This document shows, in pieces, positions 298 to 39,257 of a stretch of DNA of 40,060 nt; position 1 is the stretch's first letter; each line of letters begins with the position of its first letter. The stretch lies in assembly GCA_016288005.1 (NCBI GenBank), contig JAEEXY010000024.1, positions 1-40,060 of the forward strand. Direction: 5' to 3'. The notes beneath the pieces were generated by a model. That model searched no databases, was not told the origin of the DNA, and worked only from the letters and a program-made list of their open reading frames with translations. Position numbers and translations under genes: made by a program. The stretch comes from Lachnospiraceae bacterium. GTDB taxonomy: Bacteria > Bacillota > Clostridia > Lachnospirales > Lachnospiraceae.

Positions 298-2589
298 TTA
301 CCCTATGAGGCTTATCACACGTGCTGCACGTCCCGAACGCGTCTGTTCCATCTTCCTGAGGGATGCGATAGCACTGCGCACGTCAGACGCTGTCATAGTC
401 TTCAGCTCCTCTTCAGATACTTCGTCCAGATTTCTGCCATCCATGATGCCCGAGTGCAGACGCATTGCTTCCGCCAGCAAACTCTTGCCTTCCCTCGCGT
501 TACCGAACGAAGGATCCTGCGTCCTCTCCGAGAAGTATGCCGCCACGTCAAACTTCAATGCAGGCACTTCCGCTTCGTCAAATACGTATCCGGCATTCGC
601 GCACTGCTTCATGAAGATATCGGACATCTGTGCCCCGTCATACGAGGGGAAATCGATGACCGTTGCTATGCGGCTCTTGATTCCGGGGTTAGAGTTGAGA
701 AACGTCTTCATGAGGTTGTCAGACTCTCCGGAAGATGATCCGCCGTACCCGGCAAAAATGTAGAACTTGTCGTTTTTCTCGGACGCTTCCGAAAGAAGCA
801 TGCACAACTCTGCAAGTGCTTCGGATGCATAGGGTGATCTGTGCTCAGCACTCTGTCCGAGTGAGTAACACTCATCGACCATAAGCACGTCAGCATTGTC
901 AGCAAGTGCGCGGACTTTGGCGCTCGTCTGTCCGACGTATCCGGCTTGCAAACCACTTCCGCTAACAACTGTAAAGCGTCTCCCGGGCAGTAAGGACTCC
1001 TCAAAGAGAATGTCAGACAGTGCCTGTCCTATCGTGGACTTACCTACTCCGGGAGGTCCCGCGAAGAGAACTGCGGTGATCGGTTCACATTTGAGTCCGC
1101 GCTTCCTGCGGGCCTTGTTGAGCTTCATTGCGTTCACGAGCGCTCTGATCTCCTGCTTGGTGGACTCCATACCTTCAAGCGAGTTAAGAAGATCCCATCC
1201 GCGCAGTCTGGTACTCTCGCCGGTGTTCAGACGTCCGAGAAGTTTGAATACCTCCATGCTCAGTTCTTTGGACTCTCTCTTGGTGGCCTCGCGCAGGAGC
1301 AAGTCATTGAGGAACGTAGCCCTTAAGTCGCTCATCGACTTATTGAGACGCTGTATGAACTCCTTACGGGGGAACTCTGTAGGGATCGAAAGGCCGTGAA
1401 CATCGCAAAGCCCCTCAAAGACTGTCTCGTAATAAGCCGCATCATCCGCAGGTGCAATATCTACCGCAGACGCATTGTACTTGACCATGGCAAGAAGGGA
1501 CGCCGAACTTCCTGAAGGTGAATAATCATCATCGTCCGACTTAAAGCTCGCATCAGGCTCAAACGTAAGCACAAAGATGTGTCTTTTGTTATGGATAACC
1601 CTGCCTATAGCGTCACTGAGCATCTCTTCATTCATGTAGAATCCGTTTGTCATGTTGAGGATGATCATAGAACCGCAGTGTTCCATAAAATAAGGTGTCT
1701 TAGGTGTCGCATTTCCCACCCCGGTTAATGTCATGTCACCGAGTCCGAATCCGACATCCGGCTTATTGAAGAGCAGATCATCGAGAATAGCAACAGGAAT
1801 AACATTGGCAATACTGGGTTCTTCCGTGGGATCGTAATTCTCCAGTTCGAATTCGTCCGGATCCGTATAGATCTCATTTACAGCGATATTCTCCTTTGCG
1901 TTCTGCTTGATCGCCAGATACGATGCCGCCTGAAGTCCGAATTCCATCTTTGTGGTTCTGATGAAGATCACCTGACTTCTTAAGTCGGTCTCCGTCATTT
2001 TCATAAGAGGTTTAAAGGGATACGCGCCCTTATCGATATCATGCTCAAGTGTGTTGTAAGCACATATCCTCGGGAGCACTACCGCCTGTCTTAATGTACC
2101 GTCCGCCCCCCACGCACGCCTCTTATCAACAGAAAGAAGAGTAATGTTCTCATCGCTCCTGACATTGAAATCACAGGGGAGTGTGAGCTCTTCCTCGGTC
2201 CAATAAAACGGATCTTCGATGGGTTCGTCAAAGTCCTTCCCTTTATCCTTATACTCCTGTATCATCCTGTAGATATAGTTCGCCTCAAGAGTCCTGTTGA
2301 ACTCTTCTTCTGTGGTATTCGCGCGAAGCCTGCCGACATCCGTAAGCGCCCACACTGACTGGTCAAGAAGGATCTCGTTCTCTGCATCGCCTTCCTTCTC
2401 GAGTGCGATCAGGGTCTCAAGAGTCTTCTTGCTGTTTGCCTTCTCGGTCACTGCAAAATTGGTCTTGCTTGCAATGTCCGCGAGTGAGCGGTACTCACCC
2501 TTCTCATCCTGCGCAAGAATGCCGCGAACGACATCCATGCGCTGCGCAAGGTCATCTTCCTTGCTAGCAATATAGGTTTTCTTTGCCAT
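298..2589 (-). CDS. AAA+ ATPase of CbxX/CfxQ (SpoVK-like) type with long unknown N-terminal region
   Basis: 763 aa. The C-terminal third (about residues 460-700) is an AAA+ module: Walker A AGPPGVGKST near residue 510, the pore-side segment GYVGQTSAK that CbxX/SpoVK proteins carry, Walker B VLMVDECYSL near 570, and the NPGIKSRIATVIDFPSY segment that holds the arginine finger in this family. The first about 450 residues match no domain I recognise; they include an early winged-helix-like stretch and an acidic SDDDDYSPSGSS linker. ATP-driven remodelling of a protein partner is inferred from the family. An AAGGAG box sits 8 nt before the ATG, and the gene starts 17 nt after the DnaB-like gene. 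Its downstream neighbour is a ClpP-like protease, but no IGF-type ClpP-docking loop is visible in the AAA+ part. Confidence 0.82.
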   Translation of the reverse strand: MAKKTYIASKEDDLAQRMDVVRGILAQDEKGEYRSLADIASKTNFAVTEKANSKKTLETLIALEKEGDAENEILLDQSVWALTDVGRLRANTTEEEFNRTLEANYIYRMIQEYKDKGKDFDEPIEDPFYWTEEELTLPCDFNVRSDENITLLSVDKRRAWGADGTLRQAVVLPRICAYNTLEHDIDKGAYPFKPLMKMTETDLRSQVIFIRTTKMEFGLQAASYLAIKQNAKENIAVNEIYTDPDEFELENYDPTEEPSIANVIPVAILDDLLFNKPDVGFGLGDMTLTGVGNATPKTPYFMEHCGSMIILNMTNGFYMNEEMLSDAIGRVIHNKRHIFVLTFEPDASFKSDDDDYSPSGSSASLLAMVKYNASAVDIAPADDAAYYETVFEGLCDVHGLSIPTEFPRKEFIQRLNKSMSDLRATFLNDLLLREATKRESKELSMEVFKLLGRLNTGESTRLRGWDLLNSLEGMESTKQEIRALVNAMKLNKARRKRGLKCEPITAVLFAGPPGVGKSTIGQALSDILFEESLLPGRRFTVVSGSGLQAGYVGQTSAKVRALADNADVLMVDECYSLGQSAEHRSPYASEALAELCMLLSEASEKNDKFYIFAGYGGSSSGESDNLMKTFLNSNPGIKSRIATVIDFPSYDGAQMSDIFMKQCANAGYVFDEAEVPALKFDVAAYFSERTQDPSFGNAREGKSLLAEAMRLHSGIMDGRNLDEVSEEELKTMTASDVRSAIASLRKMEQTRSGRAARVISLIG

Positions 2590-2606
2590 ATGCCTTACTC
2601 CTTTTT

Positions 2607-3488
2607 TTATTTTTCACAGCGAAACGGATCGCTGCCCTGTTCCTTGTTGCCGTTGTCGTAAAAGCGGTGTGTCTCCGGATCAATCCTGAAGCTAACTGTG
2701 TTTCTTATGGGCAGCACGCCGCCCTTTTCGATGATGAACTCCGCGATGCCCTTGTCCTTGCTGCAGGAGTCGTAATACTCATCCCTGTACAGGAAACCCG
2801 CTATATCCACCCCGCTGTCTCTCGCGATATTCATGTCCCCGCATCCGATCATAGGTCTGTGGTCGGCCCTTTTCGTCTCAACCTGTTTTCCGACCTTATA
2901 CGTTAGGATGACCGCAACATTCTTTCTTTGTGCAATGTCCTTCAGGCAGTAGCAGGCATGTCTGGCAGGGCTTAAGACCTTATCCTTGTAACAGCCGAGA
3001 TCAAGCCCCCTGAAACTGTCTATGATCACCACCTCTGTCCCCTTAAGGTCTCCGTCGAGCTTGGCCTCGATATCCGCGGGAGTGACACCGTAACCGTTCT
3101 CTATTGAGATGTTTCCGTTGCACATTTTCCCGGCCGCCTCATCGAAGCGTTCCTGTTCATAAGGCCTCAACTCTCGAAGACGGATCATTTTCTGGGGAAC
3201 CGCCGCAGCTATCCCGATCAGATGCTCTGCAAGAATATCCTCCCTTCCGGGCGGGCGGTCACCCCAGAAATATGCAACCTTCTTAGTCTGTCCGAAGGCC
3301 AGCCTCCCGACAATATTGAGGCATAACGATGTAAGCCCCATCTTAGGCCTCGCACCGATCATCATGACATCCCCTTTTCTAAAGTTCACCTCCTTATCCA
3401 GCTCCGCAAATCCCGTCTTGATCTGCTCTTTGCGGATCCTCACCGTTTCTTTCAGTACATCTGCCTGTTTCGCGTCAAGTATCATCAT
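2607..3488 (-). CDS. DnaB-helicase-C-like RecA-fold protein with Walker A lysine replaced by leucine
   Basis: 293 aa covering only the RecA-like C-terminal domain of replicative helicase DnaB; the N-terminal DnaG-interacting domain is absent. Shared landmarks are KTGFAELDK at the start, GARPKMGLTS at the Walker A position (DnaB has GARPSMGKT), VVIIDSFRGL at Walker B, DHRPMIGCGDMN in place of the DnaB loop, and DIAGFLYRDEYYD, nearly identical to the DnaB GFLYRDEYY box. Leu52 replaces the catalytic Lys (codon CTT), so ATP hydrolysis is probably lost or strongly altered. The ATG at 3488 is preceded by GAGG and overlaps the 3' end of the Nudix frame by 14 nt, so translation was probably coupled to it. 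A structural or regulatory role is inferred. Confidence 0.75.
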   Translation of the reverse strand: MMILDAKQADVLKETVRIRKEQIKTGFAELDKEVNFRKGDVMMIGARPKMGLTSLCLNIVGRLAFGQTKKVAYFWGDRPPGREDILAEHLIGIAAAVPQKMIRLRELRPYEQERFDEAAGKMCNGNISIENGYGVTPADIEAKLDGDLKGTEVVIIDSFRGLDLGCYKDKVLSPARHACYCLKDIAQRKNVAVILTYKVGKQVETKRADHRPMIGCGDMNIARDSGVDIAGFLYRDEYYDSCSKDKGIAEFIIEKGGVLPIRNTVSFRIDPETHRFYDNGNKEQGSDPFRCEK

Positions 3489-3909
3489 TACCGGCGACCT
3501 CTTTTCTCCTGATCGCTTCGGCGACTATGCCGTCGGCCGGGGCGAACATGATTCCGTCGAAATCATCAACGGTAATCCATTTCGCGTTCAAATGCTCAGT
3601 AAGCGTGATACTGTCCGAGATTAGCCTGCAGGCGAACACCTGCATATGCAGGTGGAACGTCGGATAGTCATAGTCGATCGTATCGATCAGCTCTCCGACC
3701 TCGATCTCCGCCTTAAGTTACTCGCGTATCTCGCGCCTTACCGCATCCTCTGCCGCCTCTCCGGCTTCGATCTTCCCACCCGGGAATTCATAGAAGCCTT
3801 TAAGATCTCCATGATCGCGCTGCGCGGTGAAGAACTCTTTCCGTCCGTTCATGCCGTTCCTTTCGATCGCAGCAGCCACCACATCGATGCATGTTTTCTC
3901 ATTACTCAT
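3475..3909 (-). pseudogene. MutT-like Nudix hydrolase interrupted by an in-frame stop in the Nudix box
   Basis: The frame reads as a complete Nudix protein of about 144 codons, broken once by TAA at 3718-3720. Before the stop come IDVVAAAIERNG, FFTAQRDHGDLKGFYEFPGGKIEAGE and RREIRE. After it come LKAEIEVGEL, DYPTFHLHMQVFACRL, LNAKWITVDDF and MFAPADGIVAEAIRR, the usual MutT order. The stop falls exactly on the second Glu of REIREE (codon 64), a metal ligand; GAA to TAA is a single change. Unless suppressed or a sequencing error, the 63-aa product lacks a full active site. Intact relatives clean 8-oxo-dGTP or other nucleotides. The ATG overlaps the preceding gene by 4 nt (ATGA). Confidence 0.8.
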
Positions 3910-21538: not shown

Positions 21539-21576
21539 TTGACAAATTCGTATACCTGTATTATTGTATACAATAA
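21539..21576 (+). promoter_or_regulatory. Promoter with overlapping GntR-type operator
   Basis: TTGACA (21539-21544), a 17-nt spacer, and TATTGT (21562-21567). The perfect 16-bp palindrome TTATTGTA-TACAATAA (21561-21576) covers the -10 box. TTGTATACAA-like sites are the usual target of FCD-type GntR repressors, one of which is encoded downstream at 23118. Repression of 21624-23774 by that regulator is inferred. Confidence 0.7.
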
Positions 21577-21623
21577 CCAGTGAAATGTATATTTATTACA
21601 ATTCAGACAGGAGGTCGACTGCC

Positions 21624-23033
21624 ATGTCAACAACACGGGTAAGCACGCTTATATTAAATCCCAACACGCATCTGCTCGAGCAGGATCCTTATTCCTACCA
21701 GCTGCAGGATATCCCGGAGCCTGAGCTTTTCCGCGAGATTTACCCCTATACCGAGGTACCGAAGATCGCGTTCAACTACCGTAAGGTTCCGGCTGACATG
21801 CCCGAGGATATCTTCATCACCGACACGAGCTTCCGTGACGGCCAACAGTCGCGCACACCGTATACTACCGAGCAAATGGTTAATATTTATAAGATGCTCC
21901 ACCGTCTTGGCGGCCCGAAGGGCATGATCCGTCAGACGGAGTTCTTCGTGTACTCGAAAAAGGACCGCGACGCAGCCGTAAAATGCATGGAGCTCGGCTA
22001 TGAATTCCCCGAGATCACGACCTGGATCCGCGCTTCAAAGCAGGACTTTGAGCTGGCGAAGAACCTCGGCATCAAGGAGACCGGCGTGCTCGTATCCTGT
22101 TCCGACTATCATATTTTCAATAAGATGGGTCTTACCCGTCGTCAGGCACTCGACAAATACATGGGCATCATCAAGGAATGCATCGAGGCCGGCCTTCGTC
22201 CGCGCTGCCACTTTGAGGACCTTACACGCGCCGATTTCTACGGCTTCGTTATACCTTTCGCTACCGAGCTGCGCAAACTTTCCGACGAGAGCGGCATCCC
22301 GATCAAGATCCGTGCCTGCGACACGATGGGCTACGGTATCCCTTATCCCGGCGTATCGCTGCCGCGTTCGGTTTCCGGTATCATCTACGGTCTCAAGCAC
22401 TACGCGGGTTTCCCGAGCGAGATGCTCGAGTGGCACGGACACAACGATTTCTATAAGGGTGTTGTAAATGCTACCACCGCCTGGATGTACGGCTGCGGCG
22501 CAGTCAACTGCTCGCTGCTCGGCATAGGCGAGCGTACGGGCAATGTCCCCGTTGAGGCCATGGTCATGGAGTACGCGTCCCTGCGCGGCACATTCAACGG
22601 CATGGATCCCCATGTCATCACCGAGATCGCGGACTATATCGTCAATGAGACCGGTTACGATCTGCCTCCGATGACTCCTTTCGTCGGCCGCAACTTCAAC
22701 CTTACCCGTGCAGGCATCCACGCCGACGGCATGCTCAAGGACGAGGAGATCTACAACATCTTCGATACAGAGAAGATCCTCGGCCGCCCCGCTTCCGTTT
22801 CGGTTACCAATACATCAGGTCTTGCGGGCATCGCGTGCTGGATCAACAACCGCTACCATTTGAGCTTTGACAAGGCCATCAGCAAAAAGCACCCCGTAGT
22901 CGAAAAGATCAAAGCCTGGGTCGACAAGGAATACGAAGAAGGCCGTGTAACGCTGATCTCCGATCCCGAGATGATCGCGCAGGTCGAGCTCTACAAGGAC
23001 GAGCTGATCGCGTCGGGTATCGATATTAAGTAA
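21624..23033 (+). CDS. DRE-TIM metallolyase: Re-citrate synthase / 2-isopropylmalate synthase relative
   Basis: 469 aa. A TIM-barrel acyl-transferase of the isopropylmalate/homocitrate synthase superfamily: FITDTSFRDGQQSRTPYT (RD.Q active loop), ETGVLVSCSDYHIF, RPRCHFEDLTRADFYGF, the metal-binding HGHNDF, and GIGERTGNVPVEAMVMEY. The pattern DTSFRDGQQ...LHRLGGP...RQTEFF matches the anaerobe group containing Re-specific citrate synthases, so acetyl-CoA plus oxaloacetate to citrate is the best guess; isopropylmalate or homocitrate synthesis is the alternative. It lacks the leucine-regulatory domain of LeuA. AGGAGG lies 9 nt before the ATG at 21624. It is followed by a GntR regulator and controlled by a palindrome over the -10 box. 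Confidence 0.8.
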   Translation: MSTTRVSTLILNPNTHLLEQDPYSYQLQDIPEPELFREIYPYTEVPKIAFNYRKVPADMPEDIFITDTSFRDGQQSRTPYTTEQMVNIYKMLHRLGGPKGMIRQTEFFVYSKKDRDAAVKCMELGYEFPEITTWIRASKQDFELAKNLGIKETGVLVSCSDYHIFNKMGLTRRQALDKYMGIIKECIEAGLRPRCHFEDLTRADFYGFVIPFATELRKLSDESGIPIKIRACDTMGYGIPYPGVSLPRSVSGIIYGLKHYAGFPSEMLEWHGHNDFYKGVVNATTAWMYGCGAVNCSLLGIGERTGNVPVEAMVMEYASLRGTFNGMDPHVITEIADYIVNETGYDLPPMTPFVGRNFNLTRAGIHADGMLKDEEIYNIFDTEKILGRPASVSVTNTSGLAGIACWINNRYHLSFDKAISKKHPVVEKIKAWVDKEYEEGRVTLISDPEMIAQVELYKDELIASGIDIK

Positions 23034-23890: not shown

Positions 23891-24712
23891 ATGGGATTCT
23901 TCAAAAAGATATTTAAAAAGCTCAAGCCGTCACCCATGAACAAGGTTTACGGCGGCCCCGAGTATTTCCGCAAAAAAGCCGGGACAAAATGTGTATATGC
24001 CGGTCCGGAATACTTCGAAAAAAAGAGAAAACAGACTTCGGCCGAAGGCGTGTATGCCGGACCCGAATACTATAATAAGCAGCGCGAAGACGCGGATATC
24101 GAGGACGTATACAACGGCCCCGATATGTTCGACGAGCCCGACGATCCCGATGAGATCGCCCTGAGCCCCGCCAGCGATGCAGGGTATCCCGCAAACTATG
24201 CGGCACGCGAAGATACATCATACCCCGGCAATCATTCCGAGCCGGACGATGCTGCTCCGTATCCGGATAACCACGCCGCCGATGCCCCGGCTGGCCCGAC
24301 AGACGACGGATCAGCAGACAAAAACATCAATTCACGCCCCATCGGCTTTGTATATGCAGGCCCCGCGTATTTTAAGGGCAAAAACGGATTCAATCCTCCC
24401 ATCGAGGCAGTTTATGCGGCACCCCAGCAGCCACCCGCAGAGACGTTCATGTGCGTATATGCGGGCCCCGATTTCTTCTCCGGTAAGGATCCTGACGGTA
24501 TTGCCCGGCCCTTGGACGATGCGCCTTCCGATACATTTAAGATGAATCCCGGCGGAGAGACCCCTATCGCAGAGATACCCGAGGGAGCATGGCGCTGCCC
24601 TGCATGCGGCAATATAAATTACGGCCGTTTCTGCAGCGAATGCGGCACAATGCGCCCCGAACCGCCCAACGGAGGCCCCAAGCCCCCGACCAATCCGACC
24701 ATGCTGGCTTGA
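23891..24712 (+). CDS. VYAGP-repeat protein with C-terminal zinc ribbon, possible radical SAM substrate
   Basis: 273 aa, no recognised family. An amphipathic, lysine/phenylalanine-rich N-terminus (MGFFKKIFKKLK) is followed by seven short repeats: VYGGPEYF (19-26), VYAGPEYF (35-42), VYAGPEYY (54-61), VYNGPDMF (73-80), VYAGPAYF (154-161), VYAAPQ (174-179) and VYAGPDFF (189-196). A disordered Asp/Pro/Asn-rich stretch (81-150) separates the groups. The end is a zinc ribbon, WRCPACGNINYGRFCSECG with Cys236, 239, 248 and 251, then a Pro-rich tail. There is no signal peptide. GGGAGG precedes the ATG. A radical SAM/SPASM gene follows 150 nt later. Repeated identical aromatic motifs look like multiple modification or docking sites, but this is inference. 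Confidence 0.7.
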   Translation: MGFFKKIFKKLKPSPMNKVYGGPEYFRKKAGTKCVYAGPEYFEKKRKQTSAEGVYAGPEYYNKQREDADIEDVYNGPDMFDEPDDPDEIALSPASDAGYPANYAAREDTSYPGNHSEPDDAAPYPDNHAADAPAGPTDDGSADKNINSRPIGFVYAGPAYFKGKNGFNPPIEAVYAAPQQPPAETFMCVYAGPDFFSGKDPDGIARPLDDAPSDTFKMNPGGETPIAEIPEGAWRCPACGNINYGRFCSECGTMRPEPPNGGPKPPTNPTMLA

Positions 24713-24734
24713 TCCGACAGCAATCCTGTCGGAT
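24712..24734 (+). terminator. Hairpin at the end of the VYAGP-repeat gene
   Basis: ATCCGACAG (24712-24720) and CTGTCGGAT (24726-24734) form a perfect 9-bp stem with loop CAATC, starting within the stop codon. There is no T-run, so termination may be partial. Confidence 0.5.
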
Positions 24735-24801
24735 TAAGTCTCTGTATGTCCGGTCTTTATCATCATGGTCGACCTTTAACCGTATACAGTGACAAGCTTG
24801 T

Positions 24802-24825
24802 ACCCACCACCCAAAGGCGGTGGGT
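24802..24825 (+). other. Second hairpin, upstream of the radical SAM gene
   Basis: ACCCACCACC (24802-24811) and GGCGGTGGGT (24816-24825) pair with one A.C mismatch around loop CAAA. Similar hairpins occur at the ends of IS200/IS605-type elements, so this could be an insertion-sequence relic; no transposase remains nearby. It could also act as an attenuator for the radical SAM gene 37 nt downstream. Confidence 0.4.
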
Positions 24826-24862
24826 CATCTTATCATCACCGATGTTCAGGAGGATTATCCAC

Positions 24863-25870
24863 ATGAGATTCAACCTAAGGCACTGCGTCTGGGAGATCAC
24901 CCTCGGCTGCTGCTTTTCCTGCAAATACTGCGGCTCTTCCGCAGACGGCAAAAAGCGCAAGAATGAGCTCACTACCGAGGAATGCATAGATGTGGCAAGA
25001 CAGCTTAAAAGCCTCGGCTGCCGCCGCGTATCGCTGATAGGCGGCGAAGTTTTCATGCGCAATGACTGGTCTGCGATCGTAGACGCGCTCACCTCCCGCG
25101 GCATCAAGACCTGCATCATCACCAACGGTTTTTTGTTCAAGGATGAGCACATCGAGCGCCTTAAAGAGGTTAATATCGAGTCGGTCGCCGTGTCTTTGGA
25201 CGGCCCCCGCGAGGTTCATGACAAATACAGACAGGAGGGCAGCTACGATCGCGCAGTCCGCGCCATAAACATGCTCTCGGCCGCAGGCATCCCTGTTTCC
25301 GTGATTTCTACGCTGAACAGCGAGAATGCCGCTCAGCTCGAAGGCTTCTACCCCATCGTTTCCTCGTTCGATATCTTCGCATGGCAGATCCAGGCCTGCT
25401 CTCCGATGGGCAACGCGGCCAAAGCAGGCATCGATTACGCCTTTGATTTCGGCGAGGTCATACGCTTTGTCGAGATGCATATGTACAGTGCGCCCTTCGC
25501 TATGGGCATCGCGCACAACATCGGTTACTATACAGAGGGCGAGCCCTATCTGCGCGGCAATTTTAACGGCGCCCCCTTCCGCGGCTGCACCGCCGGTCTC
25601 GACGGCATCGGCATCGACAGCATCGGCAATGTCCGCGGCTGCGAATCGATGTACGACGACTGCTTTATCGAGGGGAATCTCCGCGAAAAGACTCTCGCCG
25701 ATATCTGGAACAACCCCGACGGCTTCGCATACAACCGCAAATTCACACCCGACCTTCTCACAGGCAAATGCAAAGCCTGCGACAAAGCAAAATACTGTGC
25801 CGCAGGCTGCAGATCATATAATCATTTCGTGTACGGAAAGCTCTACGAGTCACCGTTCTGCGCGAGATAA
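24863..25870 (+). CDS. Radical SAM/SPASM-domain protein
   Basis: 335 aa. The iron-sulfur motif GCCFSCKYC gives CxxxCxxC at about residues 17-24, then GGEVFMR (GGE motif), ITNGF and VAVSLDGP. The C-terminal SPASM-type region has cysteines in GCTAGLDGIGIDS, RGCESMYDD, and the cluster CKACDKAKYCAAGC ending in SPFC, so one or two auxiliary clusters are expected. The family includes peptide-modifying enzymes, sulfatase maturases and heme-modifying proteins. There is no N-terminal peptide-recognition (RRE) domain. AGGAGG lies 7-8 nt before the ATG at 24863; an upstream in-frame ATG has no ribosome site. Action on the VYAGP-repeat protein is inferred from adjacency only. Confidence 0.88.
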   Translation: MRFNLRHCVWEITLGCCFSCKYCGSSADGKKRKNELTTEECIDVARQLKSLGCRRVSLIGGEVFMRNDWSAIVDALTSRGIKTCIITNGFLFKDEHIERLKEVNIESVAVSLDGPREVHDKYRQEGSYDRAVRAINMLSAAGIPVSVISTLNSENAAQLEGFYPIVSSFDIFAWQIQACSPMGNAAKAGIDYAFDFGEVIRFVEMHMYSAPFAMGIAHNIGYYTEGEPYLRGNFNGAPFRGCTAGLDGIGIDSIGNVRGCESMYDDCFIEGNLREKTLADIWNNPDGFAYNRKFTPDLLTGKCKACDKAKYCAAGCRSYNHFVYGKLYESPFCAR

Positions 25871-25912: not shown

Positions 25913-27316
25913 TCAAAATCCGAAATATCTCTTCGCATTGTTATATGAGATATCCTGTACGATCTTTCCGAGGAGCTCCTCGTCCCAAGGATACTCTCCG
26001 TTCTCCACGAATCCGGCGATCAGGTTGCACATGATGCGGCGGAAATACTCGTGTCTGGGGTATGAAAGGAAGCTTCTCGAATCGGTCAGCATGCCGATGA
26101 AGTTGCCGAGCACGCCTTCGTTGGCGAGGGACTTCATCTGCGCTTCCATGCCGTCCTTATGGTCATTGAACCACCATGCGGAGCCGTGCTGGATTTTTCC
26201 TACAGCTGTAGAATCCTGAAAGCAGCCCATGATGGTCTCGATAACTGCGTTGTCGTTGGGATCAAGGCTGTAGATGATAGTCTTCGGGAGCTTGTTCTCT
26301 TTGTCGAGCATGTTCAGGAAATCAGCCAGCTGCGGTCCGGGAGCGCCGTTTAAGATGCAGTCGTAACCGGTATCGGGACCGAGCTTAGCGAACATTCTCT
26401 CGTTGTTGTTTCTCTTGCAGCCGTAATGCAGCTGCATAACCCATCCGCGGTCTGCGTATTCCTCACCGAAGAATCCGAGGATATAAGTCTTGTACTGCGC
26501 GATCTCTTCAGCGGTAACGGCCTCGCCCGCATAAGCCTTTTTGAATACGGCATTTGCGATCTCAAAGGATGTGGGTACGCAGGGCGCGTACTCGATGCCG
26601 TGGTCCGCCACGCTGCAGCCGTGCGCCGCAAAGAAATCCATGCGGTTCTTCAGTGCCTTTTTAACGCAGTTCAGGCACGCGATCTCGACGCCTGCCGCCT
26701 CTCCGAGCTTTTTCACATAGGCCGCGAACTCGGGCTTTTCGATATTAACAACCTTGTCGGGACGCCATGCGGGGATCACGGTGATGTCAAAGCTCTCGTC
26801 CGCCTTGATCTTCTCATGATATTCGAGCGAGTCGACGGGATCATCGGTCGTGCATACGAGCTTTACATTCGACATCTTCATCATGCCGCGCGCGGTAAAT
26901 CCGGGCTCGGCAAGCTTCGCGTTGCAGAGGTTCCATACCTCCTCCGCGGTCTTTGAATTCAGCACGCCCTCATATCCGAAGAAGCGTCTGAGCTCTAAGT
27001 GGCTCCACTGGAATACGGGATTGCCGATGCATTTTTCCAGTGTCTCCGCGAATTTGAAGAACTTCTCCTTATCGGGAGCGTCGCCGGTGATATACTTCTC
27101 ATCCACGCCGTTCGCGCGCATCAGGCGCCATTTGTAATGGTCGCCGCCGAGCCATACCTCGGTGATATTTTTGAATTTCCTGTCCTCCCAGATCTCTTTC
27201 GGGATCAGGTGACAATGATAATCGATGATCGGCATCTTTGCCGCATAATTGTGGTAAAGGATCTTCGCCGTCTCGCTGTTCAGGATGAAATCCCTGTCCA
27301 TAAATGCTTTTGCCAT
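25913..27316 (-). CDS. uxaC: Glucuronate/galacturonate isomerase
   Basis: 467 aa, full length. It converts D-glucuronate to D-fructuronate, and D-galacturonate to tagaturonate. Family motifs: FMDRDFILNSETAKILYH, the metal-binding MPIIDYHCHL, WLGGDHYKWRLMRANG, VCTTDDPVDSLEYH, and GMLTDSRSFLSYPRHEYFRRI near the end. GGAGAGG precedes the ATG. It lies 12 nt after kdgK, the last gene of the hexuronate operon. The oxidoreductase and dehydratase (uxaB/uxuB, uxaA/uxuA) are not in the window. Confidence 0.95.
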   Translation of the reverse strand: MAKAFMDRDFILNSETAKILYHNYAAKMPIIDYHCHLIPKEIWEDRKFKNITEVWLGGDHYKWRLMRANGVDEKYITGDAPDKEKFFKFAETLEKCIGNPVFQWSHLELRRFFGYEGVLNSKTAEEVWNLCNAKLAEPGFTARGMMKMSNVKLVCTTDDPVDSLEYHEKIKADESFDITVIPAWRPDKVVNIEKPEFAAYVKKLGEAAGVEIACLNCVKKALKNRMDFFAAHGCSVADHGIEYAPCVPTSFEIANAVFKKAYAGEAVTAEEIAQYKTYILGFFGEEYADRGWVMQLHYGCKRNNNERMFAKLGPDTGYDCILNGAPGPQLADFLNMLDKENKLPKTIIYSLDPNDNAVIETIMGCFQDSTAVGKIQHGSAWWFNDHKDGMEAQMKSLANEGVLGNFIGMLTDSRSFLSYPRHEYFRRIMCNLIAGFVENGEYPWDEELLGKIVQDISYNNAKRYFGF

Positions 27317-27328
27317 GCTAACCTCTCC

Positions 27329-28351
27329 TTATCTCTGAACGCGTCCCGAGCCGTCTCCGCCCGCGAGCTTCTTAACCTCGTCAACGCTTACCATATTGAA
27401 ATCGCCCTCGATGCTGTGCTTTAAGCAGCTCGCAGCAACGGCAAACTCGATGGTCTCCTGGGGAGCGTAATCGTTGAGGCAGGAATAGATGAGGCCTGCG
27501 CCGAACGAATCTCCGCCGCCTACGCGGTCAACGATGTGGATGCGGTAGGTCTTGCTGAAGTAGTAATCACTTCCGTCGTAGAGCATGGCTGCCCAGTCGT
27601 TGTCATTTGCCGAGATAGAACCGCGCAGCGTGATAGCGACTTTCTTGAAGCCGAAGCGGTCAGCCAGCTGCTTTGCAACGTCCTTGTAGCCCTCATGGTT
27701 AACCTTGCCTGTGGTAACGTCAGTATTCGATGCCTTGATGCCGAATACGTCGTCGGCATCCTGCTCATTTGCGATGCATACGTCAACGTACTGCATGAGC
27801 TCGCCCATGACCTGTCCGGCCTTTTCCTTGCTCCAGAGCTTATTGCGGTAGTTGAGGTCGCAGCTGATCGTAACGCCCTTTGCCTTGGCTGCCTTGCACG
27901 CCGCTAAGCAGATCTGTGCACAGTTGTCGCTGAGAGCGGGTGTGATGCCTGTGAAATGGAACCAGTCGGTTCCCTCAAAAATGTCGTCCCAGTCGAAATC
28001 ATCGAGCGATGCAGTCGCGATCGATGAACCCGCACGATCGTAGATAACCTTCGAAGGTCTCTGGCTCGCGCCCTTCTCGAGGAAGTAGATGCCTACTCTG
28101 TCGCCGCCGCGAACGATGTCGTCGGTGTCAACGCCGAACTGACGGAGGGAATTGATGCCTGCCTGTCCGATCTCGTGCTTGGGAAGCTTTGTGACAAATG
28201 CCGCGTCAACGCCGAAATTTGCCAGCGAAACTGCTACGTTGGCCTCACCGCCGCCGTAGGTAGCGCCGTACTTATCGGCCTGTACAAAACGATAATATCC
28301 TTCGGGTGCGAGTCTTAACATGATCTCGCCGAATGTAACCACTCTTTTCAT
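27329..28351 (-). CDS. kdgK: 2-dehydro-3-deoxygluconate kinase (PfkB family)
   Basis: 340 aa. It phosphorylates KDG to KDPG. PfkB features: TFGEIMLRLAPEGYYRFVQ, GGGEANVAVSLANFG, and the C-terminal signature VDRVGGGDSFGAGLIY, with the catalytic Asp in GGGDSF. The N-terminal LRL.P.GY.R motif is typical for the KDG kinase branch. The ATG at 28351 is chosen because AAGGAGG lies about 8 nt upstream. It is 27 nt after eda and 12 nt before uxaC. Confidence 0.93.
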   Translation of the reverse strand: MKRVVTFGEIMLRLAPEGYYRFVQADKYGATYGGGEANVAVSLANFGVDAAFVTKLPKHEIGQAGINSLRQFGVDTDDIVRGGDRVGIYFLEKGASQRPSKVIYDRAGSSIATASLDDFDWDDIFEGTDWFHFTGITPALSDNCAQICLAACKAAKAKGVTISCDLNYRNKLWSKEKAGQVMGELMQYVDVCIANEQDADDVFGIKASNTDVTTGKVNHEGYKDVAKQLADRFGFKKVAITLRGSISANDNDWAAMLYDGSDYYFSKTYRIHIVDRVGGGDSFGAGLIYSCLNDYAPQETIEFAVAASCLKHSIEGDFNMVSVDEVKKLAGGDGSGRVQR

Positions 28352-28378
28352 GATCTGTCCTCCTTTTTGAAAACACAC

Positions 28379-29341
28379 TTATTTCTGAACAACGTGTACC
28401 GCAAAGCCTCCGAACTCGCCCTCGAGATAGATGGCCTTGATGTTGCCCTTTTCATCCTTCTTGGCCGAATCAGCGTTGAACTTCGCGCCGCGCTGCTCGA
28501 GATGATACATCGCGCGCTCAACCGAATTTGTCCTGATCGCGATATGTCCCATGGTGCCGAGATACTTTGACTTCATGAGCTCTACGCCGCTGCCCGCGAA
28601 AATGGAGCTGTTGCCGTCCTTACGGGCGAAACCGAACAGCTTTGCGAAGCAGTCCGCTGTATTTGCAGCATCGGACTCGCTGTCCAGATTAACGCCGACA
28701 TGAGCCACCTCAAAGCCGAGGATGGTCTCAACGGCCTCTCTCGAAAGCCTCGTGATCTCGTCGAAATTGCCCGCCGCGATAAGCTTCTTGTCTACCATCC
28801 AGCTGCCGCCGCATGCGAGCACCTTGTTGAATGAGAGATAATTGTTGATATTGCCTGCATTGATGCCGCCCGTGGGCATGAACTTGACTCCGCCGTAAGG
28901 CGCGCTCATGGCCTTGATCATCGCGATGCCGCCGGAAGCCTCCGCAGGGAAGAACTTAACCACCTCAAGTCCGTACTCGAGCGCGATCTCGACATCCGAG
29001 GGAGTCGAGCATCCGGGAGTAACGGGGATACCCTTATTTACACAGTATTCAACTACCTTGGGATTAAGTCCGGGGCTGACGATGAACTTTGCTCCCGCAG
29101 CAACCGCGCGGTCAACCTGCTCTGTCGTGAGCACGGTTCCTGCGCCCGTGAGCATCTCGGGGAGCTCTCTCGTTAATGTCCTGATAACCTCTTCTGCAGC
29201 AGCTGTCCTGAATGTAACCTCAGCGCATGCTATGCCGCCCGCCAGCAGCGCTTTGCCCAGAGGCAGCGCGTCTTTCGCATCATCGAGGGCAATGACGGGC
29301 ACAATGCCGATCTTGCCCAGCCTGACCAATACGTCGTTCAT
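28379..29341 (-). CDS. eda: KDPG/KHG aldolase fused to a VOC/glyoxalase-like domain
   Basis: 320 aa against about 210 for a normal KDPG aldolase. Residues 1-205 are the aldolase: catalytic Glu41 in AEVTFR, Schiff-base Lys129 in VVKFFPAE, phosphate-binding MPTGGI and CGGSWMV. It splits KDPG to pyruvate and glyceraldehyde 3-phosphate. From about 211 (FEVAHVGVNLDSES) to the end (GEFGGFAVHVVQK) is a vicinal-oxygen-chelate (glyoxalase/bleomycin) type domain with His at VAHVGVN and MGHIAIR and Glu at YLEGEF. Its role is unknown; it may bind a metal or the substrate. AAGGAGG precedes the ATG. It is the first gene of the hexuronate operon. Confidence 0.9.
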   Translation of the reverse strand: MNDVLVRLGKIGIVPVIALDDAKDALPLGKALLAGGIACAEVTFRTAAAEEVIRTLTRELPEMLTGAGTVLTTEQVDRAVAAGAKFIVSPGLNPKVVEYCVNKGIPVTPGCSTPSDVEIALEYGLEVVKFFPAEASGGIAMIKAMSAPYGGVKFMPTGGINAGNINNYLSFNKVLACGGSWMVDKKLIAAGNFDEITRLSREAVETILGFEVAHVGVNLDSESDAANTADCFAKLFGFARKDGNSSIFAGSGVELMKSKYLGTMGHIAIRTNSVERAMYHLEQRGAKFNADSAKKDEKGNIKAIYLEGEFGGFAVHVVQK

Positions 29342-29359
29342 TTTGTAACCTCCTTAATC

Positions 29360-29376
29360 GTTTCGTATAGTGAAAC
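29360..29376. promoter_or_regulatory. Palindrome in the eda leader, candidate operator
   Basis: GTTTC (29360-29364) and GAAAC (29372-29376) with 7 nt between, about 20-35 nt after the predicted eda RNA start. It could be a roadblock site for the divergent IclR-type regulator or another repressor. Confidence 0.45.
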
Positions 29377-29400
29377 TCTGTTTTGCTCTATGATACTTCG

Positions 29401-29429
29401 ATTATATAACCAACACCGATAAATGTCAA
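29401..29429 (-). promoter_or_regulatory. Consensus promoter of the eda-kdgK-uxaC operon
   Basis: Minus strand: TTGACA (29429-29424), exactly 17 nt, TATAAT (29406-29401). A perfect sigma-A match; such a strong promoter normally requires repression. Confidence 0.9.
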
Positions 29430-29456
29430 GAATTCCCTATATACCCTTGTGTTTTA

Positions 29457-29500
29457 TATAATCTAATGCTAATATTAAAATGTGGTTTCACAATGTGGAA
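29457..29500 (+). promoter_or_regulatory. iclR promoter -10 and imperfect palindrome
   Basis: TATAAT (29457-29462) lies about 63 nt before the iclR start, with no clear -35. TTTCACA-A-TGTGGAA (29486-29500) is palindromic at 6 of 7 pairs and fits the TTCCA/TGGAA-type sites of IclR regulators; it lies just downstream of the -10, consistent with autorepression. Confidence 0.45.
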
Positions 29501-29524
29501 TTATCTATGAAGGAAGCATCAGAA

Positions 29525-30307
29525 ATGGATACAAAAACTACCAATCCGATCCAGTCCGCGGACAGGATCTTTGCGATCCTTGAGGCGCTCGCGGATCACG
29601 GATCCATGAGGATCATCGATCTGAGTGAGCTGCTCGAGCTCCATAAAAGCACCGTACACCGTCTCCTCGCATCGCTCATCAGCATGGGCTATGTCACGCA
29701 GAACGAGCAGACCGGCGCATATGCCCTTACTTTCAAACTGGTCGAGATGTCGGGAAAGATACTTAAAAACACCGATATCCTGAGTCTTGTCAGGCCCTAC
29801 GCCGAGCAGCTCAGCAACGCCTGCGACGAGACCGTGCATTTTGTCAAAAAGACCGGGAGCAACGTTCTATATATTGAAAAGCTCGAATCCCAGTCGGTCA
29901 AGGCGCGCTCATTCCGCCTGTCATCACAGGTCGGACTCACCCGCCCTATGTACTGTTCAGCGGTCGGAAAGGTCATTCTCGCATATCTTCCCGCCGAAGA
30001 AGTTAAGTCTATATGGGATTCTTCCGATATAGTGAAAAAGACGGATTATACGATAACGGATTTTAAGACCCTAAGAAAGGAGCTTGAACTGATCCGTACC
30101 AGAGGCTATGCTCTGGACAACGAGGAAAACGAGCTGGGCATCAGATGCATAGCCGTTCCTGTTTTCGATTACCATGACACCCCGCAATACGCCCTCAGTG
30201 TTTCCACACTGGTGAGCAGGATGCCCGATGAGCGTCTCGAGAGTCTCTCTGCGCAGCTGCTTTCGACTGCCCGCGATATTTCACGGGTTTTGGGTCACAA
30301 AGAATAA
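29525..30307 (+). CDS. IclR-family regulator, probably of hexuronate catabolism (KdgR-like)
   Basis: 260 aa. N-terminal winged helix: SADRIFAILEALADHGSMRIIDLSELLELHKSTVHRLLASLISMGYV, spread over about residues 10-58. The C-terminal ligand domain has SNACDETVHFVKKTGSNVLYIEKLES, PMYCSAVGKVILAYLP and the Cys/Asp/Ala motif ENELGIRCIAVPVFDY. The ATG at 29525 with AAGGA about 10 nt upstream is preferred; a start at 29510 or 29480 is possible but has weaker ribosome sites. Divergent from eda-kdgK-uxaC, so it likely senses KDG or KDPG; family members include KdgR. It is 21 nt from the HD-GYP gene and may be co-transcribed with it. Confidence 0.88.
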   Translation: MDTKTTNPIQSADRIFAILEALADHGSMRIIDLSELLELHKSTVHRLLASLISMGYVTQNEQTGAYALTFKLVEMSGKILKNTDILSLVRPYAEQLSNACDETVHFVKKTGSNVLYIEKLESQSVKARSFRLSSQVGLTRPMYCSAVGKVILAYLPAEEVKSIWDSSDIVKKTDYTITDFKTLRKELELIRTRGYALDNEENELGIRCIAVPVFDYHDTPQYALSVSTLVSRMPDERLESLSAQLLSTARDISRVLGHKE

Positions 30308-38987: not shown

Positions 38988-39257
38988 AAAAAAGCCGCGC
39001 GTTCTGCTTCGAATGAAAAATATCGCCGTTACCCATACAGTTAACTCGGTCCAGGCTGCCTCACAACACACAGAATGCACCGCTTAGTGCTGCTGTATTC
39101 CTACCCTGACACGGTTCACGGGTTCCTGTTGTGTGAGACCCAAACGTCAACATCACTTATATGGGGCTGCGCAACACGCCCCACCCTCTGCCGAACATCA
39201 CCCCTGCTGTAGCGGATTGCAGGTTCAGGGCACCGCTGACTCCCCGGCTGCGCGACA
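38988..39257 (-). ncRNA. ffs: Signal recognition particle RNA, large (Alu-containing) type
   Basis: About 265-270 nt, the size of Bacillus scRNA. The 5' GUCGCGC (39256-39250) pairs with 3' GCGCGGC (39000-38994), followed by six U (38993-38988). The Alu domain has the Firmicutes-type GGTGCCCTGAACCTGCAATC and GCTACAGCAGGGGTGA segments. The SRP54-binding domain IV is at 39112-39083: GTGTCAGGGTAGGAATACAG then CAGCAC, with the GGAA tetraloop and AGCA symmetric loop. It is bound by Ffh and directs membrane-protein translation to the membrane. It has its own near-consensus promoter. Apparent small reading frames inside it are not genes. Confidence 0.92.

Follow-up and report, generated by a model that had tools for sequence, protein, structure and literature searches.

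Among described systems, the one that best compares with the locus presented here is PlpXY, whose radical S-adenosylmethionine (SAM) enzyme PlpX belongs to the subclass IPR026482 (PMC11002830). PlpXY does not need a leader, the tyrosine is the reaction site in its XYG substrates, and the published ketoamide tool combines PlpXY with a ten-residue tag (PMC10533398). Published splice tags contain GYGLP or LYGLP, with a proline three residues after the tyrosine (position Y+3; PMC10533398, Table 1), and the resulting keto-beta residues are said in a review, which cites Scott 2022, to confer protease inhibition (PMC10373908). Here we describe a gene pair from a Lachnospiraceae bacterium (GenBank assembly GCA_016288005.1, contig JAEEXY010000024.1, positions 1 to 40,060; this whole stretch of 40,060 nucleotides is called the window), in which a gene for a protein with repeated VYAGP motifs (23891–24712, + strand) is followed by a gene for a radical SAM/SPASM enzyme (24863–25870, + strand). 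The enzyme and the motif protein form a real paired system, which is well supported by their joint distribution; VYAGP is very likely the substrate of the enzyme, and by analogy with PlpX the enzyme probably works like a spliceotide enzyme.

Orthologs of the enzyme were searched with the enzyme of locus L010 as query in samples of the genus (24 genomes), the family (397) and the order (392), and with the window enzyme in a sample of the class (391). They were present in ten genus genomes (66–100% identity), in 14 family genomes (61–77%, followed by a gap down to paralogs at 37–40%), in ten order genomes (59–67%, three of them already found), and, at class level, in the genome of the window and five others (55–63%), i.e., in 35 different genomes (10 from the genus, 13 further ones from the family, 7 from the order, and 5 from the class). 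In 33 of the 35, the enzyme adjoins a protein that carries the motif or a near form of it; in G018 such a protein lies on another contig, and in G566, where the enzyme starts 167 bases from the contig end, none is seen. The enzyme–substrate pairing that an earlier note on this DNA had proposed is supported. The partner is mostly located upstream on the same strand, downstream in G433, G718, and G1098, and convergent with the enzyme in G166, where the site reads IYAPP; in G1081 and G860 partners flank the enzyme on both sides, and in G392 only a contig-edge fragment with ATYAGP and the ribbon described below is visible. At 10 of the 15 loci measured, the gap between the two genes is −13 to +2 bases, compared with 150 bases in the window.

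A profile of the partner N-terminus matched 10 of the 24 genus genomes, exactly those with the enzyme; eight of its 12 rows come from these ten genomes, so that independent agreement comes from G018, G020, and the 14 genomes that lack both. The same profile matched nine of the 397 family genomes, with the matched protein adjoining the enzyme in seven (five are profile rows, G136 and G249 are independent). The other two matches (G253 and G175) occur in genomes without an enzyme match at 1e−45 and are taken as chance, as G253 lacks the motif and the G175 match is a 947-residue frame with one IYGGP. VYAGP proteins widespread without a radical SAM neighbor, the finding that the earlier note had named as speaking against its idea, were therefore not convincingly seen in this sample, with the limit that the profile recovers just 7 of the 14 enzyme-bearing family genomes, the other seven having divergent partners, so that solitary VYAGP proteins of divergent sequence could have escaped. 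The strict pattern VY[AGNM][GA]P gave 105 matches at 27 of 34 ortholog loci (window locus excluded), as opposed to none at 17 control loci of a related enzyme group (the XYG group, see below) and none at 24 zinc-ribbon control loci; with a looser motif the figures were 31/34, 1/17, and 0/24. In the phylum sample, no ortholog was found in 268 other genomes at an E-value of 1e−60, plasmid records contained no ortholog (best matches 33–37% identity), and phage records gave no match. Being absent from most relatives (present in 14/397 in the family and 0/268 in the phylum), the pair is an accessory trait.

The partner protein in the window has 273 amino acids, is mostly disordered in prediction, and contains VYx[GA]P seven times (residues 19, 35, 54, 73, 154, 174, and 189). 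The sites, all encoded on the + strand, are VYGGP (23945–23959), VYAGP (23993–24007), VYAGP (24050–24064), VYNGP (24107–24121), VYAGP (24350–24364), VYAAP (24410–24424), and VYAGP (24455–24469). Seven copies of VYxGPxxF had been reported in the earlier note; the number of sites holds, but six of them are VYxGP and five fit the full VYxGPxxF (the third ends in Y and the sixth reads VYAAPQQP). Residue shuffling of the same protein (20,000 rounds) gave a mean of 0.013 and a maximum of 2 such sites. At the DNA level, the pattern GTNTAYGCNGGNCC for VYAGP matched four times in the 40-kb window, always inside the partner gene, against an average of 0.01 matches in 100 shuffles. Synonymous codons differ among the repeats, which therefore do not stem from a fresh tandem duplication. 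Compared with locus L034 of a yak-rumen Lachnospiraceae genome (90% identical, its N-terminus missing at the contig end), the ratio of nonsynonymous to synonymous substitution rates (Ka/Ks) was 0.145, which marks a real gene under purifying selection; in this alignment, none of 30 motif residues and 25 of 219 other residues were changed.

The largely disordered character of the protein was recovered in an AlphaFold model based on a two-sequence alignment, a weak test, in which the predicted local distance difference test score (pLDDT) was below 50 at 236 of 273 residues and between 70 and 90 only near the C-terminal four-cysteine zinc ribbon CPACGNINYGRFCSEC (24596–24643, + strand). The ribbon itself, also pointed out previously, is read directly as C-x2-C-x8-C-x2-C; Pfam Zn_Ribbon_1 reached 18 bits, below its cut-off of 25. 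The N-terminal segment MGFFKKIFKKLK (23891–23926, + strand) is indeed cationic, while its supposed amphipathic nature is only suggested, as its helical moment of 0.63 was matched by 5.7% of its own shuffles; the corresponding values were 4.7% and 16% in two genus partners and 66% and 78% in two C-terminal segments, so that moments often equalled by shuffles make amphipathicity weak evidence. No Nif11 or NHLP leader was matched in the window partner by Pfam or NCBIfam, and no DUF1843 by Pfam.

Across 36 partners (the starts of G018, G249, G982, G1098, and G1081b were set by hand, and some, e.g., in G433 and G136, have an overlong N-terminus), protein size ranges from 76 to 421 amino acids and the number of sites from 1 to 10. 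The consensus over 102 sites from 27 partners, collected with a pattern in which Y and P were invariable and X and Y+2 restricted, is V (88), Y, A (87), G (78), P, and position Y+1 holds A 87, N 5, M 5, G 3, S 1, and I 1 times. When the proline was left unfixed, it was found at Y+3 in 124 of 129 VY dipeptides of the 36 partners, which had been chosen for having the motif. By regular expression, 18 of 28 partners have an F-F-K-x-[IL]-F-x-K-like cationic stretch at the N- or C-terminus and 16 of 28 have the zinc ribbon. A role of the ribbon as recognition element, as once suggested, was rejected on this count; Y-P is steadier, being present in 34 of 36 partners against 19.3 expected from composition, and its longer form YPx[NST][FYH] occurs in 15 of 36 against 0.29 expected. 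This second motif, absent from the earlier note and spotted post hoc, is a candidate docking motif, and in the window it is present as YPANY (24185–24199), YPGNH (24221–24235), and YPDNH (24260–24274), all on the + strand. No partner (0/36) has a transmembrane-like stretch, defined as an 18-residue span with at least 13 A/I/L/M/F/V/W.

The partners are not all of the ribbon kind. In L057 (genome G040; the same in L101), a protein kinase-FHA protein (2477–3742) carries TTVYAAPGE between its two domains and directly precedes the radical SAM gene; the YSAP and YIAP found in the same protein may be chance. As partners differ this widely, from zinc-ribbon proteins to a kinase-FHA protein, VYAGP looks like a portable tag. 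Further proteins of the L057 cluster resemble zinc-ribbon proteins or match no Pfam family convincingly. In two other genomes, the neighborhood of the pair includes two dynamin-like GTPases (L102, 3504–8059) or an SPFH/zinc-ribbon protein together with a HerA-like ATPase (L104, 431–5373).

The window enzyme comprises 335 amino acids and most likely starts at the ATG at 24863, behind an AGGAGG ribosome binding site (24848–24853, + strand) and at the position from which orthologs align; a longer reading frame begins at 24746. It contains the CxxxCxxC of the radical SAM cluster (residues 16–23; 24908–24931, + strand) and a SPASM region with seven cysteines (residues 242–333; 25586–25861, + strand), and both the Radical_SAM and SPASM domains exceed the Pfam cut-offs, in line with the earlier description as a SPASM-type radical SAM enzyme. 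Its structure model (two-sequence alignment) was poor, with a mean pLDDT of 42.5, and was left unused; the closest solved structure by phmmer was SkfB. In the phylogenetic tree, the VYAGP enzymes form one clade with 98/99 support (28 rows; L062 was not recovered by the enzyme motif pattern, and L072, the short enzyme of G015, and the five class-level enzymes were omitted). The top NCBIfam match of all seven VYAGP enzymes scanned was TIGR04103 (nif11-class radical SAM maturase 3, which we take to be the same as IPR026482), at 207–238 bits; TIGR03913, the GDL maturase, came second (185–223 bits), the remaining families reached at most about 150 bits, and none of the seven enzymes attained the cut-off of any family. 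Prokaryotic viperin (pVip) was considered and rejected, at 66 bits versus 218 for TIGR04103 in the window enzyme.

Several features connect the clade with PlpX and with a further, TPR-bearing set of enzymes. Like PlpX, the VYAGP enzymes combine a radical SAM domain with a seven-cysteine SPASM region, have TIGR04103 as their best named family, and are linked to substrates with multiple sites of the form X-Y-small-x-Pro, as in LYGLP. The signature WQxQxxxPMG is present in 29 of 29 VYAGP enzymes, in 15 of 16 XYG-group enzymes, and in the Agathobacter and Nostoc members of TIGR04103, and is absent in two GDL, one TIGR04347, and one TIGR04133 enzyme; the five class-level orthologs carry WQxQxCxPM. 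Ten cysteines (CxxxCxxC plus seven in SPASM) are invariant in 27 VYAGP rows, in all 17 rows of the XYG group and Agathobacter taken together, in the Nostoc row, and in both GDL rows (the alignment has L072 as a partial and L051 as a shortened sequence and leaves out L098 and L099). On a Nostoc plasmid, an enzyme with the annotation nif11-class maturase 3 has a Nif11 precursor containing LYGLPP on one side and a 71-residue protein, located where PlpY might be expected, on the other.

The XYG-group enzymes (L059, L060, L064, L077, L078, L082, etc.) share the radical SAM/SPASM architecture and repeat-bearing neighbors with the VYAGP enzymes, to which they are 36–40% identical, and differ in their KYGYP or EYGFP sites and in a C-terminal TPR region, detected by Pfam in the three long enzymes scanned and absent in L061. 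An X-Y-G repeat protein (KYGYP, EYGFP, PYGFP, KYGVP, or KYGV/MYGV) adjoins the enzyme at 10 of 17 loci; the other seven have no or no clear repeats, and the enzyme of L058, one of these seven, is flanked by small AYA-bearing peptides. Some of the neighbors are noteworthy on their own. KYGY-repeat proteins (L059 2513–3436, L060 2545–3084, L064 274–1437, and L078 476–1423, the last with up to 13 copies) adjoin radical SAM enzymes that bear TPR in the two cases scanned; they have an N-terminal stretch with NYGWCLSSLP or AYGWCLTGLP that looks chagasin/I42-like by eye, with no such Pfam match in the three scanned, and are candidate multi-ketoamide protease inhibitors. Secreted-looking proteins with PYGFP, EYGYP, or EYGFP sites, S-layer-homology-like or dockerin-like by eye, also lie beside XYG-group enzymes (L076 2484–3275, L077 2484–3266, and L082 2510–3115).

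In GDL maturase loci, the second-best family, small DUF1843 peptides with XYG, XYA, or XYM near the N-terminus take the place of VYAGP proteins, and the two enzymes checked lack WQxQxxxPMG. Alanine has a precedent as a replacement for glycine at Y+1: next to one radical SAM gene, LYAAG, MYAAS, and PYGAG occur in a tandem of three DUF1843 peptides, and AYA peptides flank the L058 enzyme. Tandem arrays of DUF1843 peptides adjoin radical SAM enzymes in L097 (1537–2252) and L100 (2159–2872). A term search of a structural paper on a DUF1843 protein gave no occurrence of "radical" or "splic-" (PMC10994174). Membership of the window enzyme in the GDL maturases failed, with 204 bits against a cut-off of 591.75 for TIGR03913.

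Taken together, we lean towards a splicease-like enzyme that accepts XYA in place of XYG and would leave keto-beta-valine in a resident cytosolic protein. The two genes would constitute a self-contained cassette for protein modification, in which the enzyme would recognize X-Y-[A/G/N/M]-[G/A/P]-P (consensus VYAGP) in the protein encoded alongside and modify the tyrosine region at every site, up to seven times in the window partner. With the chemistry of PlpX, a tyramine-excising splicease, each site would become lighter by about 135 Da as its tyrosine is excised as a tyramine equivalent and the backbone rejoined, so that V-Y-A becomes alpha-keto-beta-valine followed by alanine; this conversion is expected because VYAGP fits the LYGLP/GYGLP frame and because Ala and Gly alternate at Y+1 in the DUF1843 peptides. 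The modified protein would stay whole in the cell, possibly held at the membrane through its FFKKIFKK-type cationic segment, and would display a row of electrophilic ketoamides, with a conceivable role in protease inhibition or as a reactive scaffold. As no export signal was found, an intracellular action of the product is to be expected.

A number of observations weigh against this reading and keep our preference for it a mild one. The window enzyme reaches 218 bits against a TIGR04103 cut-off of 725, with six other orthologs equally below it (207–238 bits), and it is 33% identical to the Nostoc enzyme and 34–35% to the GDL enzymes, i.e., equally distant from both. The deep order of the VYAGP, XYG, Nostoc, and GDL enzymes is open in the tree, so that a sister relation between the VYAGP and XYG enzymes is not supported; that the XYG-group enzymes are spliceases is itself something we infer. 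The frame X-Y-small-x-Pro is common but not universal, as proline occupies Y+3 in 43 of 67 YG sites of 11 XYG-type substrates and Y+4 in L073 and L081, the DUF1843 peptides have none at Y+3, and one published tag type, AGYGVVFP, has none there either (PMC10533398, Table 1). These two points, the unsupported sister relation and the non-universal proline, are why we do not place the reading higher. In contrast to PlpX substrates, the VYAGP sites mostly have alanine after the tyrosine (glycine in 3 of 102), and the pair in the window comes without PlpY and without a Nif11/NHLP leader, its substrate resembling a resident cytosolic protein. Only 42 bp separate the enzyme from the opposing uxaC and the VYAGP partner lies upstream, which leaves no room for PlpY beside the window enzyme (no PlpY profile was run at other loci). 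The clade also has extra conserved cysteines, at position 8 in 25 of 27 enzymes, at 17, 41, and 179 in 27 of 27, and at 53 in 26 of 27 (17 and 53 are lost in L129–L132), which could mean another chemistry. In G015 (L007, 842–1510), the enzyme match starts only after residue 119, and so without CxxxCxxC, while the partner is intact; this shortened form may reflect decay or an assembly fault. Given the low score, the missing XYG, and the lack of PlpY and leader, we do not file the window enzyme under the spliceotide enzymes; conversely, the "new class" of radical-modified protein put forward in the earlier note is too strong a term, because the enzyme resembles a known splicease family.

A wider version of the splicease-like reading is advanced only tentatively: VYAGP as tag and YP(xN) as docking motif would make up a portable tag-and-writer system for resident cytosolic proteins, in which each tagged tyrosine is spliced without PlpY and independently of a leader. 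Its substrates, perhaps membrane-tethered zinc-ribbon scaffolds and a kinase-FHA regulator, would carry rows of alpha-keto-beta-valine as working electrophiles, and splicing would be regulatory or structural rather than part of natural-product biosynthesis.

The alternative that survives best, a serious though less probable one, keeps VYAGP as the substrate and assigns it another chemistry, such as a Val-Tyr carbon-carbon bond, epimerization, or another oxidation of tyrosine. The extra cysteines of the clade speak for it, as does the fact that the clade is no nearer to the Nostoc PlpX-type enzyme than to the GDL enzymes. The mycofactocin precursor uses a C-terminal VY, a three-residue cyclophane can form only if the second residue beyond the aromatic one has a beta-carbon, and in sactipeptides and ranthipeptides conserved cysteines of the core serve as thioether donors. 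Valine precedes the tyrosine in 88 of 102 sites, and the mycofactocin enzyme MftC (TIGR03962), likewise a SPASM enzyme, links tyrosine to the neighboring valine (PMC8326336). On the other hand, TIGR03962 reached 131 bits in the window enzyme, short of its cut-off of 265 and far under TIGR04103, all seven VY pairs of the window partner are internal, and the product of MftC is a redox cofactor. A triceptide-type cyclophane is disfavored by glycine at Y+2 in 78 of 102 sites, and cysteine-based chemistry by the fact that a cysteine stands two residues before the tyrosine in merely 20 of 102.

We consider it unlikely that VYAGP or YP is an unmodified docking or scaffold tag while the enzyme acts on another residue or protein. 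The diversity of the partners, from ribbon proteins to the kinase-FHA protein of L057, would suit such a tag, as would the constancy of YP (34/36), which equals that of the VYAGP motif. However, related enzymes adjoin repeats of tyrosine plus a small residue, it is tyrosine that reacts in XYG substrates (PMC10533398), and up to ten sites per partner are what a multi-site substrate would have. A secreted ribosomally synthesized and post-translationally modified peptide, i.e., a bacteriocin or signal cut from a VYAGP precursor with a leader and exported, is very improbable: small partners of 76–134 amino acids do adjoin the enzyme and many N-termini are cationic, but no protease or transporter gene adjoins the pair in the window, cores start as early as residue 13 and extend to 10 residues from the C-terminus, the hydrophobic-stretch search was negative in all 36 partners, and partners reach 421 amino acids with folded domains. 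That an unrelated repeat protein and a radical SAM enzyme are neighbors by chance can practically be dismissed, as the genus genomes matched by the profile (10 of 24) are those with the enzyme and the motif protein adjoins the enzyme in 33 of 35.

A full-text literature search for VYAGP returned no biological report and one unrelated chemistry paper; the main survey of splicease diversity (Scott 2022, Chem) was outside that search, and the VYAGP enzyme group may already be on its published splicease tree. If the splicease-like reading is true, ribosomal beta-amino acids would extend beyond natural products to the multi-site modification of ordinary cytosolic proteins, and a one-enzyme ketoamide writer with a five-residue tag could result, compared with the two proteins and ten-residue tag of PlpXY. 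The cellular role would then be testable in a genus that offers natural pairs with and without the system. If the chemistry differs, the system would still be a protein family that is linked to a radical enzyme and marked by a well-defined motif.

The intergenic region between the two genes contains two hairpins. The first (24708–24738, + strand; 13-bp stem, −18.9 kcal/mol, z −7.3) is not followed by a long U-run and may reduce the expression of the enzyme relative to the substrate. The second (24801–24826, + strand) has an unremarkable fold energy in the window (z −1.3) and a more exceptional one in L034 (z −2.7), where it is also found; it is the sole copy in the genome at up to two mismatches, which ruled it out as a dispersed repeat. 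Upstream of the pair, an HMGL-like synthase (Pfam) is encoded at 21564–23033 (+ strand), and in G249 a protein close to the pair (L118, 10248–11681, − strand) has an N-terminus that looks similar by eye, which may be chance. Downstream, the region 25913–30307 holds a glucuronate isomerase (NCBIfam) followed by genes that resemble kdgK, kdgA, and an IclR-type regulator by eye, and a bacterial large signal recognition particle RNA (Rfam RF01854, 171.9 bits) is located at 38995–39255 on the − strand.

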